Assembly: GCA_029932855.1 (NCBI GenBank)
Contig: JAOZPG010000010.1
Location: forward strand, 19,507 to 83,506
Direction of reading: 5' to 3'
Length of the DNA: 64,000 bases
Origin: Bacteroidales bacterium
GTDB taxonomy: Bacteria; Bacteroidota; Bacteroidia; Bacteroidales; VadinHA17
The translations under genes were made by a program, and so were the position numbers. Shown one piece after another: positions 42,185 to 48,595 of this stretch (position 1 is the stretch's first letter; each line of letters starts with the position of its first letter). The notes under the pieces were generated by a model. That model saw only the letters and a list, made by a program, of their open reading frames with translations. It searched no databases and had not been told where the DNA came from.

Positions 42185-43291
42185 ATGAGAGTAAATAAAA
42201 GCGGGGCCCGTTATTCGGCCATAGTAGGCATAGGAGAAAAAATAAAGGAACTCAGTAAGCAAACAGCCAGGGAATATCTTTTCCTGAACAGGGGGGTCAA
42301 TGCGGTTTGTAATATAAACCTGAATGAGGTGGTAAAAGATATTGATTTCAACTCGGGTACTATACAGGTTTACCCGCCTAATTCCGGTTTCCCCAGGCTT
42401 AAATCTGCTATTAACGAGATATACTTTCATAATAGAACCAGGGATGATAATATTACCATTTCTGCAGGAGGTATGGGTGGGCTCGACCTTGTTTTTCAGA
42501 CCCTGGACATAGATAAGATATTGCTTCCAAGGTTTTACTGGGGTGCTTATGCTAATATTTTACTTATCCGTAATGTGCCCAACCAGACCTATAACAGTCT
42601 TCCTGAATTGAAAGCTCTGGCAGGCAGCATGGCAGGTACTGCAGTGATTATTTGTGATCCTAATAATCCTGTAGGAAACAAGTATGATGATGCGGAAGTG
42701 CTTGAAACAGTTAAGCTGCTTGAATCAAAAGGTGCGGTTGTGGTCTTTGACAGCCCTTACCGCAGGGTGTTTTACGACAGGGATGAACCAATGTTCGCTG
42801 AACTTGCACAGCTTGATAACGTAGTTATAGTTGAGAGTTTCAGTAAGTCTGTAGGCCTGTCCGGACAAAGGCTGGCATTTGTACATTCAGGCAATGAGGA
42901 ATTTAATAATGAACTGGGAATACGTATTCTTTATGCAAATAATGGCATTAATGGTTTTGCACAGGAGCTGGTAAGCCGCTTGCTGGTATCGGAGGAAGGG
43001 AAAAAGGCTGTTGATAACTTCAGGAAGGAGACCGTAAGAGATATAGGGCTGAATATTAGGTATTTGAAAGAAAAAGGTCTCCTGGCTGATAATGAATTTT
43101 ATTCCGATTCTGATCCTATGGGGATTTTTGTCATTGTTAATAAAACGGAAAAGGAATTGCTTGAAAAATACATAGGTAGTGTTTCTCTGAGTTATTTTAC
43201 AAAAGATGAAAAACAATGGGCATCACAGTTCTCAAGGCTGTGTGTTTCAGTTCCCCATTCCGGCTTTGTAGAGTTTTTCAGCAGTTTCTAA
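42185..43291 (+). CDS. PLP-dependent class I/II aminotransferase
   Basis: The 368-residue enzyme has fold-type I features: IICDPNNPVGN (Asn that contacts the cofactor), FDSPYRRVFYD, and the PLP lysine in ESFSKSVGLSGQRLAFVHSG. The N-terminal part is somewhat unusual (VNKSGARYSAIVGIGEKIKEL). The substrate cannot be told; aspartate or aromatic amino acids are usual for the class. It starts 24 bases after lpdA and is probably co-transcribed. Its stop overlaps the converging lipoprotein gene's stop by 4 bases. Confidence 0.88.
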   Translation: MRVNKSGARYSAIVGIGEKIKELSKQTAREYLFLNRGVNAVCNINLNEVVKDIDFNSGTIQVYPPNSGFPRLKSAINEIYFHNRTRDDNITISAGGMGGLDLVFQTLDIDKILLPRFYWGAYANILLIRNVPNQTYNSLPELKALAGSMAGTAVIICDPNNPVGNKYDDAEVLETVKLLESKGAVVVFDSPYRRVFYDRDEPMFAELAQLDNVVIVESFSKSVGLSGQRLAFVHSGNEEFNNELGIRILYANNGINGFAQELVSRLLVSEEGKKAVDNFRKETVRDIGLNIRYLKEKGLLADNEFYSDSDPMGIFVIVNKTEKELLEKYIGSVSLSYFTKDEKQWASQFSRLCVSVPHSGFVEFFSSF

Positions 43292-43950
43292 TAGTAATAA
43301 TCTATTTCCTTACTGTAAGCAGATCCTTCGTAGTTGAGGACAAGAATGAACTTTGTTGAGTGAGCATTGGAATTTTGCAGGGAGCTGATATCAAATGATA
43401 CATGATCTCCTATCCATGCCTCGCAAAGATCTCCGTTGGCATTATGGCACAGGGCCAGCACCGGCAGCATTCCCTTTGAGGTATTTTTCATTGTTGGTAG
43501 TATTGTTAAAGAAAAATCATGCTCATGGCAGCCACCACTATAGTGCAGCGCCAGGCCCAGGCAATCGCCATTTATTCCGAGGGTGTCGAGGCTGAAAGGG
43601 TCGGAGGGGAGTTTTGCAGAATAGGGGTTTAAGTCTTTGCACTCCAGCTCCCTTATGCTATCTATTCTTACTGTCTTCCCGACCATGCAGATGCTCATAT
43701 TGCTTAATTCGGTATAGGTCAGTATCACCCTTTGCCCGTCCATCAGCACAAAGTTCTCATCATTTATTTCAACGGGTTCCAGCTTATCACCATTAATCAG
43801 CTCAATGATAAAACCACAGCCGTCCAGGCCTGTGTAATCACGAACAATACCTTTTACTTCGTTCTTAATTATAACAGGATTATCCTCACAGCTGGAAAAG
43901 TTTAAAAAAACAGATGCCAGTATCAGTATAACAAAATGTTTCTTTTTCAT
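43288..43950 (-). CDS. Lipoprotein of unknown function
   Basis: The protein (about 220 residues from the ATG at 43950) has a lipoprotein signal peptide (MKKKHFVILILASVFLNFSSC). Two parts are visible: an N-terminal beta domain with TGLDGCGFIIELINGDKLEP and a C-terminal part with HYSGGCHEHDFSLTI. Seven or so cysteines after the lipid-bearing one may form disulfides or bind metal. I recall similar two-part lipoproteins in other Bacteroidota, all without a known role. An ATG five codons upstream is less likely because it would put charged residues before the signal. It follows the serpin gene by 31 bases, so the pair are probably co-expressed at the cell surface. Confidence 0.75.
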   Translation of the reverse strand: MKKKHFVILILASVFLNFSSCEDNPVIIKNEVKGIVRDYTGLDGCGFIIELINGDKLEPVEINDENFVLMDGQRVILTYTELSNMSICMVGKTVRIDSIRELECKDLNPYSAKLPSDPFSLDTLGINGDCLGLALHYSGGCHEHDFSLTILPTMKNTSKGMLPVLALCHNANGDLCEAWIGDHVSFDISSLQNSNAHSTKFILVLNYEGSAYSKEIDYYY

Positions 43951-43981
43951 GATCCAGATTTTCATAAATGAGAGTATCGTA

Positions 43982-45253
43982 TTATTCCGGGTTTTCCACC
44001 TTGCCCATAAACATAATGGCCCCGGTTGTGTTTTCTTTTATTATATAAACAAAAGGATGGTTTGCCCTGAACTCAATACTGTTATCTCCTCCGCCGCCTG
44101 CCGATGTAACGCCTATTGTAACTGAGGTTACAGCTGCTGCCTCTGTGCCTTCTTCGTCAAGCTCGATAAAAGTCTTATGTTTTACCGAAGAAATATACAG
44201 GTCAACATCAGAGTTTATCTTTGAGAAATCTGCTGCACCCTTACTATCAAAGGCAATTCCCATTCCTAACTGAGTCAGGTCGGGTATTAATTCCTTTTTG
44301 TATTCTATCTTGAATTTTGGAAGGAAAATATTTACTGCTGTCTCATCAGAGAAGTCCGCATTCCAGTTATCCCATGCGTCCTGGTTCATGGCTGATACAA
44401 GGCTGTCGAGGCTTACATTATAATTCGGCAGCAATATGGCCATGCTGAAGTTACCCTGCCCGTATGGAAGGTCAACCGCGCTGAATAGTTGATTGGAAGT
44501 ATATTTTATATTTTCCTTGAAAGACATGGTTTGTACATTATTGATAATGTTCCCTTCCTGGTCGTAAAATGCTTCTTCTTTTGTTTCTTCTTTGTTAAAC
44601 TGGTACTTCCAGGTAGCTTTAAAGTAAATCGCATTGATCAGGAACATAATATTCTCAGGATCGATCTGTTCAATGATCTTGTCAATCTTATCATGTGTTT
44701 TTTCAGCTACCCAGCCGTTTATTATTCCCACAGATGCAGGGTCGGTAAAATCAAGGCGGTTGACTTTTGCATCATAAAAAGTCTTGTTGACATTCAGGAA
44801 GTCTTCTTTCACCGGAAAATTATCGCGGTACCATATAGAGTTGCCAATCTCCATTATCACTTTCGGGTCTACACTGAGCAGGGCATTTATTAAAAGCTGG
44901 TAGGACTGGTTGATCTCTTCCAGGCTAAGGCCGGTAAGGTGCATCACTTCTTCAAAAGCTTTTTTTGTATCCCCCTCAGCTCCGTTGTAGGTCATGGCCA
45001 GTGCAAGAGAAATGCTTAATGGGGAGATCATTAGATTATCCTCGTCCTCCTCAAGTAAATTTGTTGTTTTAAATATATCGAAAGCAAAATCATTGCTTGT
45101 TTTAAGCAGGAGTAGGCTTTTCTGGTCCAGGTTAATTTGCTTTGGTCCTGCCGGGGAAACAGGGTCCTTTTCGCAGGAAGCAATAAATATAGCTGCTGCG
45201 AGTATTACAGATGACAGTATAATAACAGTTTTTGATCTAAATGGAGTTTTCAT
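43982..45253 (-). CDS. Serpin-family protease inhibitor, predicted lipoprotein
   Basis: The 423-residue protein has a signal peptide with a lipobox cysteine near residue 27 (FIASC) and a full serpin domain (about 45-423), including NAIYFKATWKYQF, the FLPKFKIEYKKEL segment and the C-terminal FRANHPFVYIIKENTTGAIMFMG. The reactive-loop hinge EEGTEAAAVT (about 367-376) matches the consensus of inhibitory serpins. Counting 17 residues from the first Glu puts the scissile bond near Thr383-Ser384. It probably traps serine or cysteine proteases at the cell surface. It seems to form a unit with the small lipoprotein gene downstream. Confidence 0.93.
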   Translation of the reverse strand: MKTPFRSKTVIILSSVILAAAIFIASCEKDPVSPAGPKQINLDQKSLLLLKTSNDFAFDIFKTTNLLEEDEDNLMISPLSISLALAMTYNGAEGDTKKAFEEVMHLTGLSLEEINQSYQLLINALLSVDPKVIMEIGNSIWYRDNFPVKEDFLNVNKTFYDAKVNRLDFTDPASVGIINGWVAEKTHDKIDKIIEQIDPENIMFLINAIYFKATWKYQFNKEETKEEAFYDQEGNIINNVQTMSFKENIKYTSNQLFSAVDLPYGQGNFSMAILLPNYNVSLDSLVSAMNQDAWDNWNADFSDETAVNIFLPKFKIEYKKELIPDLTQLGMGIAFDSKGAADFSKINSDVDLYISSVKHKTFIELDEEGTEAAAVTSVTIGVTSAGGGGDNSIEFRANHPFVYIIKENTTGAIMFMGKVENPE

Positions 45254-45438
45254 GACATATATTTTTTCAGGGCATACCCGGTTTATGTTTAGACAACTTT
45301 AACAGCCTGTAAGTTGCGTCTGGTGAATAATAAATGCAAGCAAATTCTGTGCCATCATCATTAATATAAATACGCAACCATTTATCATCTTAAATCATCA
45401 AATGAATGCAAAAGTTCTTTGAAAAAACCTTAATATGA

Positions 45439-45469
45439 TTGTTTAGCTCTAATATAAGCTGTAATTTTG
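45439..45469 (+). promoter_or_regulatory. Promoter of the ECF sigma/dual-membrane gene pair
   Basis: TTG (45439-45441), a 20-base spacer and TAATTTTG (45462-45469) fit the housekeeping consensus. Transcription from it would begin near 45475, after the upstream TTG codon at 45471, which argues for the GTG at 45498 as the translation start. Confidence 0.6.
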
Positions 45470-45497
45470 ATTGACGCAGGCCTTAAAAATTATAAGG

Positions 45498-46064
45498 GTG
45501 GAAGAAAAACTACAGCGCTTAATTAGCGAGTGCATTAAAGGTAATCAGTTGGCACAAAGACATTTGTACGACAAGTATGTCTCTGTAATGTTTGGTATTT
45601 GCCTGAGGTATGCCAAAGATGCTGATAGTGCTAAGGATATACTGCAGGATGCTTTTATTAAGGTTTTTAGCAAGCTGAAGCAATATAATGGGCATGGTTC
45701 TTTTGAAGGCTGGTTGCGAAGGGTATTTATAAATACTGCCCTTGAGAAGTTCAGGAACAAGACGCCCATACTTTCTCTTGATGACAAGGCTGAACTTACA
45801 ATTGGGGAAGTGCCCGAAAACATAATATCTGAGCTTTCTGCCGGGGAGTTGCTGGAAATGATTCAGGATCTTTCACCGCAGTACAGGCTGGTATTTAACC
45901 TGTATGCCATTGAAGGATATTCGCATAAGGAGATAGCAGAAAGCCTTGGTATATCAGAAGGAACTTCGAAGTCGAATTTGTCGAGAGCAAGAAGCATTCT
46001 GCAAAAGAGGATTATAAGTCTTTCAGCTATGGAAGGAAGGAGAAAAAAAGTAAATGAAGGATAG
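45498..46064 (+). CDS. ECF-type RNA polymerase sigma factor
   Basis: The protein of about 188 residues has sigma region 2 (AKDADSAKDILQDAFIKVFSKL and FEGWLRRVFINTALEKFRN) and region 4 with the DNA-reading helix ISEGTSKSNLSRARSILQK. No ATG precedes the conserved region. The start is GTG at 45498 (VEEKLQRLISEC) or TTG at 45471; the promoter position favours GTG. Its last 11 bases overlap a gene for a protein with an anti-sigma-like N-terminus, a membrane helix and an outer-membrane barrel, so the two form a sigma/anti-sigma unit. The overlap implies coupled translation. Confidence 0.9.
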   Translation: MEEKLQRLISECIKGNQLAQRHLYDKYVSVMFGICLRYAKDADSAKDILQDAFIKVFSKLKQYNGHGSFEGWLRRVFINTALEKFRNKTPILSLDDKAELTIGEVPENIISELSAGELLEMIQDLSPQYRLVFNLYAIEGYSHKEIAESLGISEGTSKSNLSRARSILQKRIISLSAMEGRRKKVNEG

Positions 46065-47547
46065 GCCAAATAATATTGACAGTGTATTTAAGTCCGGTCT
46101 GGACAATTTTCAGGCTGAACCGCCGGCTGATGTTTGGGCGTCTGTAAAAGAAGGCCTGTTTAATCAGGCAATAAGGGATAAATTATATTCTTATGAATCT
46201 CAGACCCCCTACGGTTCGTGGCCGATAATTCGTGCAGGTATAGCTGATGAGCTAAGGCCTGTTTACAGCAATATTGCAGCAGCAGTGGCTGTACTTGTGG
46301 TGGTTGTAGCCACTGCATTCTGGGCAATGAGGACTAACTTAAATCAACCGGCAGCCAGTATGCTGGCTGAGCAGGCAATAGTACTTCCGGCAGAAACAAT
46401 AGATAAAGCCCCTGTTAGAGAGATAGTTGTGCCTGAGCAGTCTCCTGCAGGAAATGATAATGCAGAAGCTCTTCTTGCCGAAAATTCAGCCGGCTTATTT
46501 CCAGCCGGCCAGGACTATAAAATTGTTGCCCGGGAGAACATTTCTGAAGTGCAGGCTAATTCTTCTAGCCTTTTTACATCTCTCAGGTCGCAGTCTGTGG
46601 CAGCAAACTATACGGGAAATGCTTCCGGTGACCTTTCTCCGGGACCCGAAGAAGAGAAATCCTTGCTTCACATGGAAACACAAAAAAGGATGGGCTTTAT
46701 GGGTCAGGTAAATTCAGGGGACTATCCGGGTAATCTTGTGGTTCCGGAGCCGGTGCAGTATGCTAATAAATGGACTGTGGCAGGTAACTATACGCCTGTT
46801 TATTCCTTCAGGTATGCTAATTCAGAAAATACTCTTAAGACAGATAATTATTATTATAATTCCGAGACCCCGGTAATCTCTTTTACAAGCGGTGTAAGTG
46901 CAGAGTACAATTTTGAAAAGAGATGGTCGGTCAGGTCCGGGATACAGTATTCAAAAAATGGAGTTCAGGTAAATAATGTAATTTTTTACCAGGATGTTCA
47001 GACAGGCAGGCTTCTTAGTTCAGGTATTTTTAACGAAGATATTCCTTATCCCTTTGAAACTTCCCTGGGAAACATCTCTTCGGGTGATTTCACTCACTAC
47101 ATTGCGGATTTTAAAATGCCGGGTGGCGATTATTATACCGGGAACCTGTCTGCTAATCCCGAGTTTGCCTCATATGAGATGATGAATACCGACCTTACTC
47201 AGAACCTGGAATTTCTTGAAGTACCTGTAATAGTGAAGTATAAACTTATTGACAGGAAGCTTGGAGTTAATTTGCTGAGCGGACTGGGAGCAAGTTTCCT
47301 TATCAATAATGAGGTTTATATGACATACCTGGGTGAGCAGTTTGCTATGGGACGTACCTCTGATATCAGGTCTGTTAACCTGGTGGGGACAGTTGGTATG
47401 GGACTGGAATATCTGATAAGTAAATCACTTGCCTTAAATATTGAACCAAGCCTTAAGTACTTTCTTAACTCTATGAATACCGAATCAACACTTTCTACCC
47501 ATCCTTATTATTTTGGAGTTTATTCAGGTATCAGCATTTCTTTTTAA
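46054..47547 (+). CDS. Putative dual membrane-spanning anti-sigma factor with C-terminal outer-membrane barrel
   Basis: The 497-residue protein has three parts. Residues 1-70 are soluble and cytoplasm-like, with the short anti-sigma-like segment FKSGLDNFQAEPPADVWASV. Residues 72-92 are one clear membrane helix (IAAAVAVLVVVVATAFWAM), with no signal peptide before it. After a linker of about 145 residues, about 238-497 form an outer-membrane barrel ending GVYSGISISF. This layout matches the dual membrane-spanning anti-sigma factors (Dma) described in Bacteroides thetaiotaomicron. It probably holds the sigma factor encoded upstream and releases it on an outer-membrane signal. The barrel's ligand and the regulon are unknown. 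Confidence 0.8.
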   Translation: MKDRPNNIDSVFKSGLDNFQAEPPADVWASVKEGLFNQAIRDKLYSYESQTPYGSWPIIRAGIADELRPVYSNIAAAVAVLVVVVATAFWAMRTNLNQPAASMLAEQAIVLPAETIDKAPVREIVVPEQSPAGNDNAEALLAENSAGLFPAGQDYKIVARENISEVQANSSSLFTSLRSQSVAANYTGNASGDLSPGPEEEKSLLHMETQKRMGFMGQVNSGDYPGNLVVPEPVQYANKWTVAGNYTPVYSFRYANSENTLKTDNYYYNSETPVISFTSGVSAEYNFEKRWSVRSGIQYSKNGVQVNNVIFYQDVQTGRLLSSGIFNEDIPYPFETSLGNISSGDFTHYIADFKMPGGDYYTGNLSANPEFASYEMMNTDLTQNLEFLEVPVIVKYKLIDRKLGVNLLSGLGASFLINNEVYMTYLGEQFAMGRTSDIRSVNLVGTVGMGLEYLISKSLALNIEPSLKYFLNSMNTESTLSTHPYYFGVYSGISISF

Positions 47548-47565
47548 AGGAGATCTTATAGCTTA

Positions 47566-47594
47566 TTGTTAGTTCCCAAAAAGAACTATTTTTG
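47566..47594 (+). promoter_or_regulatory. Promoter of the lytic transglycosylase gene
   Basis: TTG (47566-47568), an 18-base spacer and TATTTTTG (47587-47594), 23 bases before the ATG at 47618. Confidence 0.6.
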
Positions 47595-47617
47595 CAGAAG
47601 CTTTAAAAGATCACAAA

Positions 47618-48595
47618 ATGCTTGCATTCAAAAATATATTCAGGAGAAGGGCAGTTTATTTTATTCTTGCATTTCTTATTCCGCTTATACTGTTTGTTAT
47701 AAATAGTTTTGATTCTGAATCTGATGTATTGGAGGAATCCTTCCAGGATTTATTCAGAAAGAATTACTCGATCTTTGCACTTCCGCTTCCTTCAGAGATG
47801 GAATATGCAGGAGAAAGAGTTCCTCTTGAGAATTTTGACGTAAGAGAGGCCCTGGACAGGGAGTTGCTGGTAAATACATACTGGCAGTCGCAAACATTGC
47901 TTTTTTTAAAGCGGGCAAACAGGTATTTCCCAATAATTGAAGATGTATTAAAAAGAAATTCTGTCCCTGATGATTTTAAATACCTTGCCCTTGCGGAAAG
48001 CGGACTTATCCAGGTTGTTTCTCCCACGGGGGCCACAGGTTTCTGGCAGTTCATGTCAGGAACAGCCCGGGATTACGGACTGGAAGTAAATAATGAAGTT
48101 GATGAACGCTATAACATCGAAAAATCCACAGAGGCTGCTTGCCGCTACCTGAATGAATCATACAAAAAATTTGACAGCTGGATACTGGTGGCGGCTTCCT
48201 ATAACAGGGGGCGAAAAGGGATTAACGAACAACTCTCAAGGCAGGAGGAGGATAATTATTTCGATCTCTTGCTGAATGAGGAGACCTCGAGGTATGTTTA
48301 CAGGCTGTTGGCACTGAAGCTTATTGTTAGTGATCCGGGGAAATATGGTTTTAACTTCAGGCCTGACGATCTGTATCCACCACTTTCTGTGAGGAAGGTG
48401 AAAGTTGATACGGCAATTAAATCAATGATTGATTTTGCGGCACAGTTTGATATGAATTACAAAATGCTTAAATATTTTAATCCATGGCTGAGGGAGATCC
48501 GGCTCAGTAATAAGAGTGCTAAGACTTACGAAATACTGATACCATGCAAGAATTTCAGAACGGGGGTATATGATAATCAAATGCCCCCGGAATGA
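47618..48595 (+). CDS. Lytic transglycosylase, MltD-like
   Basis: The 325-residue protein has an N-terminal membrane anchor or signal (about 11-28) and an SLT family 1 domain (about 100-235). The catalytic glutamate is Glu127 in LALAESGL, followed by SPTGATGFWQFMSGTA and AASYNRG. It cleaves peptidoglycan glycan strands to 1,6-anhydro products in the periplasm. The C-terminal part (about 255-320) resembles a degenerate LysM-like region (AAQFDMNYKMLKYFNPWL). It has its own promoter and lies 55 bases before uvrA. Confidence 0.9.
   Translation: MLAFKNIFRRRAVYFILAFLIPLILFVINSFDSESDVLEESFQDLFRKNYSIFALPLPSEMEYAGERVPLENFDVREALDRELLVNTYWQSQTLLFLKRANRYFPIIEDVLKRNSVPDDFKYLALAESGLIQVVSPTGATGFWQFMSGTARDYGLEVNNEVDERYNIEKSTEAACRYLNESYKKFDSWILVAASYNRGRKGINEQLSRQEEDNYFDLLLNEETSRYVYRLLALKLIVSDPGKYGFNFRPDDLYPPLSVRKVKVDTAIKSMIDFAAQFDMNYKMLKYFNPWLREIRLSNKSAKTYEILIPCKNFRTGVYDNQMPPE

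Follow-up and report, generated by a model that had tools for sequence, protein, structure and literature searches.

A putative Dma/Reo-type trans-envelope anti-sigma factor with a tandemly duplicated N-terminal motif, encoded beside an ECF sigma factor gene in Bacteroidales

Within the 64,000-nucleotide stretch of Bacteroidales DNA analysed here (the window), a gene for an ECF sigma factor overlaps a second gene whose product joins a cytoplasm-like N-terminus to a C-terminal barrel, raising the question of whether the two proteins form one signalling unit that bridges both membranes. An earlier note on this DNA had tentatively assigned the pair to the Dma type, a family whose members are described as extending between outer membrane and cytosol (PMC13088901, PMC13114119). 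This assignment stood: the architecture of the protein, its adjacent ECF sigma gene, profile homology, reciprocal best hits between the sigma factors and a divergent nigD gene were all in agreement with it.

The first open reading frame contains Sigma70_r2 and Sigma70_r4_2, sigma-70 regions 2 and 4, according to Pfam, and was annotated as an ECF sigma factor gene of the Das1/EcfO type (45498..46064, forward strand; alternative start TTG 45471) based on these domains and a reciprocal best hit. The left edge given previously, 45439, is impossible as its start because an in-frame TAG occupies 45444-45446, and the candidate starts are TTG 45471 and GTG 45498. The Bacteroidota housekeeping -7 box has the consensus TAnnTTTG, and TAATTTTG, read from the sequence at 45462..45469 on the forward strand, resembles this box, so that GTG 45498 is favoured. 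The 11-base overlap with the barrel gene was confirmed, with 46054-46064 (11 nt) shared by the two reading frames. The sigma factors of the window and of Bacteroides sp. GM023 were reciprocal best hits at 42% identity, the reverse direction being run against 21 fetched GM023 sigma loci rather than the whole GM023 genome.

The second gene (46054..47547, forward strand) is predicted from its open reading frame, alignment and profile homology to encode a trans-envelope anti-sigma factor of the Dma/Reo type, 497 aa in length. Hydropathy analysis gave a single predicted inner-membrane helix at residues 74-92 (46273..46329, forward strand), with a 19-residue maximum of 2.59 at residue 74 and no second membrane helix found in the protein, closely matching the one internal helix (72-92) that the earlier note had placed in this single chain. 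Between the helix and the first conserved barrel residue, W240, lies a tether of 147 residues (previously put at about 145), which is presumed to form a disordered periplasmic linker (residues 93-239; 46330..46770, forward strand), is of low conservation judging by identity to the genus mate G378, and in which Pfam found no domain. The remainder is a predicted C-terminal outer-membrane beta-barrel with a C-terminal Phe (46771..47544, forward strand), as had been anticipated, detected through OMP_b-brl_2 (PF13568) at residues 270-462 (E=9e-6; 26.3 bits, just below the 27-bit cut-off) and a profile-profile match to gut Dma barrels. Mean charge across the protein family was +3.5 before the helix and -0.2 after it, and because of this positive-inside bias the N-terminus is expected in the cytoplasm; the flanks in the window protein itself, at -1 before and +1 after, are without the bias of its relatives. 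The position of the helix 73 residues into the chain, the N-in charge bias of the family and the family-wide conservation of an N-terminal motif together with the helix all count against a signal-peptide cleavage that would part residues 1-92 from the barrel.

Matches to the barrel protein at E<=0.001 were found in 123 of 295 genomes of the order, many over part of the barrel only, and in 92 of the 98 genomes of one Bacteroidales family, usually as one copy. A sigma open reading frame lay just upstream in each of the 28 homologues for which the preceding DNA was available, and because all 28 pair a sigma factor with a protein carrying the N-terminal motif, helix and barrel, the arrangement is not attributable to chance. 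Alignment of 27 members (A1) showed the motif, the helix, a tether of variable length and a conserved barrel to be common to all. The earlier note had proposed homology to Dma proteins as a check. A profile was built from 14 Dma-like proteins of gut origin, one of them from Bacteroides sp. GM023 and named Dma1-like by context rather than by a published tag; compared with the window protein (P0002), it yielded E=2e-12 against E=0.024 for the best of 2000 shuffles, while HHalign gave a probability of 99.6 and E=1.2e-24. Scans of genome contigs and viral contigs with P0002, P0001 and A2 found no relatives, and the family profile had no match among solved structures. Taken on family and architecture, the classification of the 497-residue protein as a Dma/Reo-type anti-sigma factor is well supported.

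The N-terminal motif of the family, IDxxFxxxLxxxxxxPPxxVWxxIxxxL (alignment A1), was detected by alignment columns, which replaced a regular expression since most members escaped it. In the window protein it is present as copy 1 at residues 8-35 (46075..46158, forward strand), which scored 40 bits with an HMM built from other homologues, and as copy 2, a degenerate tandem duplicate at residues 38-61 (46165..46236, forward strand), whose 9.9 bits with the same model were reached by none of 5000 shuffles. The gut Dma profile also aligned separately to each copy. Due to this duplication, which was overlooked in the earlier note, the cytoplasmic part spans 73 residues, compared with a median of 44 in relatives. 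Two copies were seen only in this genus, and other scanned homologues with a complete N-terminus have one. Copy 2 deviates from the consensus in its opening ID and in one proline of the pair, and together with its low score relative to copy 1 this is what would be expected of a decayed duplicate without function, a reading that is compatible with a Dma/Reo-type pair. We consider such decay possible but somewhat unlikely, as copy 2 is retained in G378 (10.7 bits) and, when the two genus members are compared, is no less conserved than copy 1 (amino-acid identity 0.45 for copy 2 and 0.43 for copy 1, against 0.22 for the tether).

Because the putative sigma-binding module is duplicated in this genus, a single chain may bear two sites for sigma binding. 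The same genome encodes a second candidate partner (G000 C15, L176 1471-3359), where a related ECF sigma gene, preceded by GCAACC-N16-TGTC, is followed by an anti-sigma gene. The product of the latter shares the N-terminal motif (21.9 bits with a nucleotide profile) and the helix with the window protein, but in place of a barrel carries two PKD domains and a CHU_C type IX secretion domain, and so would bear a surface-export signal at its C-terminus. A bivalent anti-sigma domain, whose two motifs would simultaneously bind two sigma factors (a pair of its own, or its own plus the C15 paralogue), such that one sensor gates two sigmas, is a speculative and rather doubtful extension. The element upstream of the C15 sigma gene resembles a site directed at the serpin and nigD genes beside the window pair; if true, bivalency would couple a protease inhibitor at the surface to the response to envelope stress.

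A different topology, in which the anti-sigma factor is anchored in the inner membrane with its beta domain periplasmic or cut off, rather than spanning both membranes, was judged improbable. It would accommodate a barrel that is called from sequence alone, with a Pfam match under the cut-off and a single-sequence structure prediction that reached pLDDT 33 and gave no usable model, as well as a tether that varies from 127 to 248 residues across the family. The barrel, however, is the most conserved part of the protein (61% identity to G378, compared with 22% for the tether), the last residue is aromatic or hydrophobic in nearly all family members, as in outer-membrane substrates, and the profile homology is to gut Dma-like proteins, whose family is described as extending from outer membrane to cytosol (PMC13088901, PMC13114119). 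That the two genes are co-transcribed yet functionally separate, the second encoding an ordinary porin-like protein, is very improbable, for although co-transcription is read from the overlap of the reading frames alone, proteins that otherwise agree only in the barrel still share the N-terminal motif, the sigma-barrel pairing recurs in 28 of 28 loci tested, and the C15 paralogue keeps the motif beside a related sigma where PKD and CHU_C domains replace the barrel.

Inspection of the DNA preceding the sigma genes revealed a predicted autoregulatory ECF promoter, ACGCAACC-N16-CATC (45372..45399, forward strand, in the window). The pattern GCAACC-N10-22-CATC was present upstream of sigma in 37 of 43 non-redundant loci, 34 of them with a spacer of exactly 16, where 0.02 were expected. 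Using a position weight matrix (PWM) trained without the window, the window site scored 31.1 bits and the second-best site in the 64 kb 10.4 bits. These results argue strongly for a conserved element that fits an autoregulatory ECF promoter, and from its position upstream of the sigma genes autoregulation is implied; the window sigma would accordingly be a candidate for recognizing ACGCAACC-N16-CATC. Elsewhere in this genome (G000), an exact ACGCAACC-N16-CATC (C12:113581-113608; L167 1501-1528; 30.5 bits) has no clear downstream ORF before an opposite-strand folD-like gene and could precede a small RNA, and GCGCAACC-N16-CATC (C16:14655-14682; L170; 27.0 bits) lies ~560 nt before a TonB-linked-receptor-like gene. 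The C12 match and the near matches are not claimed as a regulon because a reversed control pattern returned 3 matches against 6.

Divergent to the sigma gene are a serpin gene with a lipoprotein-like signal (FIASCEKD; 43982..45253, reverse strand; Pfam Serpin E=2e-111) and, beyond it, a gene for a NigD1/NigD2-family lipoprotein (43288..43965, reverse strand; NF051862, 70.8 bits, cut-off 60), the single NigD1-family match in its genome. On the other side, a lytic transglycosylase gene of the SLT/MltD type (47618..48595, forward strand; Pfam SLT E=1.7e-22) is a conserved neighbour, with the order sigma-Dma-SLT-UvrA retained in most family members examined, and a scan of 47500-47700 found no terminator. 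Divergent serpins were also located beside the sigma-Dma pair in G378, G373, G380, G212 and G382, and as the serpin recurs in this position, protease defence is suggested as an output. In relatives, two serpin genes adjoin the pair at L154 1576-4165 and L155 4985-8498, compared with one in the window. In 11 of 30 fetched NigD loci, the neighbours of nigD include a sigma ORF as well as a Dma-like ORF. At L063, L095 and L177, a different ECF sigma gene is followed by genes for a membrane anti-sigma-like protein of 182-186 aa and an exported protein, and at L063 and L095 this sigma gene adjoins a NigD-family gene.

A pattern search located a weaker divergent site, CGCAACT-N16-TGTC (45292..45318, reverse strand), facing the serpin and nigD genes. 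Using CGCAACY-N16-YRTC, the degenerate letters of which were picked after inspecting relatives and the paralogue, two sites were found in the window (0.06 expected), the divergent site being the only one besides the sigma promoter (P ~6.5e-4 for the 217-bp stretch). Over six loci checked, the serpin-facing site was not found in the genus mate nor at three other serpin loci, and at a fifth locus, L158, a site of 15.1 bits points to the serpin from ~860 bp away. At several gut loci, divergent GCAGTATTT boxes are directed at nigD and at sigma. That the window sigma controls the serpin is weakly suggested, and the serpin and nigD may be outputs, judging by their neighbourhood and one weak site.

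The window pair resembles Dma1-Das1 and Dma2-Das2 of Bacteroides thetaiotaomicron (PMC13088901) in its N-terminal, putatively sigma-binding part, helix, long and presumably disordered tether and barrel, and in the ECF sigma gene directly upstream. It likewise resembles the Dma1-like locus of Bacteroides sp. GM023, where a NigD1-family gene (214.7 bits) is divergent to sigma-Dma; a second GM023 locus resembles the Dma2 operon. In contrast to Dma1 and Dma2, the window protein has a duplicated N-terminal motif and low identity outside the motif, a serpin gene stands between nigD and sigma, and the promoter-like element is of the CGCAACC type rather than the GCAGTATTT type of many gut loci. Similar architecture is found in EcfO-Reo of Phocaeicola vulgatus and Bacteroides fragilis (PMC9308784, PMC13114119), and the P. 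vulgatus genes nigD, ecfO and reo have consecutive tags (M0N98_03762, 03761, 03760; PMC13114119, PMC9308784), a grouping of nigD with sigma and anti-sigma genes that the window locus shares, although PMC13114119 mentions no serpin. The EcfO-Reo sigma gene is strongly induced under stress, in line with autoregulation (PMC9308784, PMC13114119).

Overall, the architecture, homology, sigma coupling, motif duplication and conserved promoter-like element read from these sequences make it very probable that the gene pair is a signalling unit of the Dma/Reo type (Das1-Dma1, EcfO-Reo), working as follows. In the 497-residue protein, the N-terminal motif would hold the ECF sigma in the cytoplasm, the helix would serve as the inner-membrane anchor, the tether would cross the periplasm and the barrel would be seated in the outer membrane. 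The barrel may sense envelope stress, by analogy with EcfO-Reo of P. vulgatus (PMC9308784, PMC13114119), and a disturbance of the barrel or outer membrane would pass down the tether and free the sigma, which would then activate its own promoter, ACGCAACC-N16-CATC, and possibly the divergent serpin-nigD genes.

The Dma/Reo literature found covers a few gut Bacteroides and Phocaeicola, and here such proteins prove near-universal in a single family of Bacteroidales, with matches in 92 of its 98 genomes, and common in the order by sequence search. The conserved promoter-like element makes their regulons predictable, and the two-motif variant offers a natural case for asking how the sigma factor is held and released. 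Ultimately, Dma/Reo proteins may provide a direct signalling path from the outer membrane to transcription.
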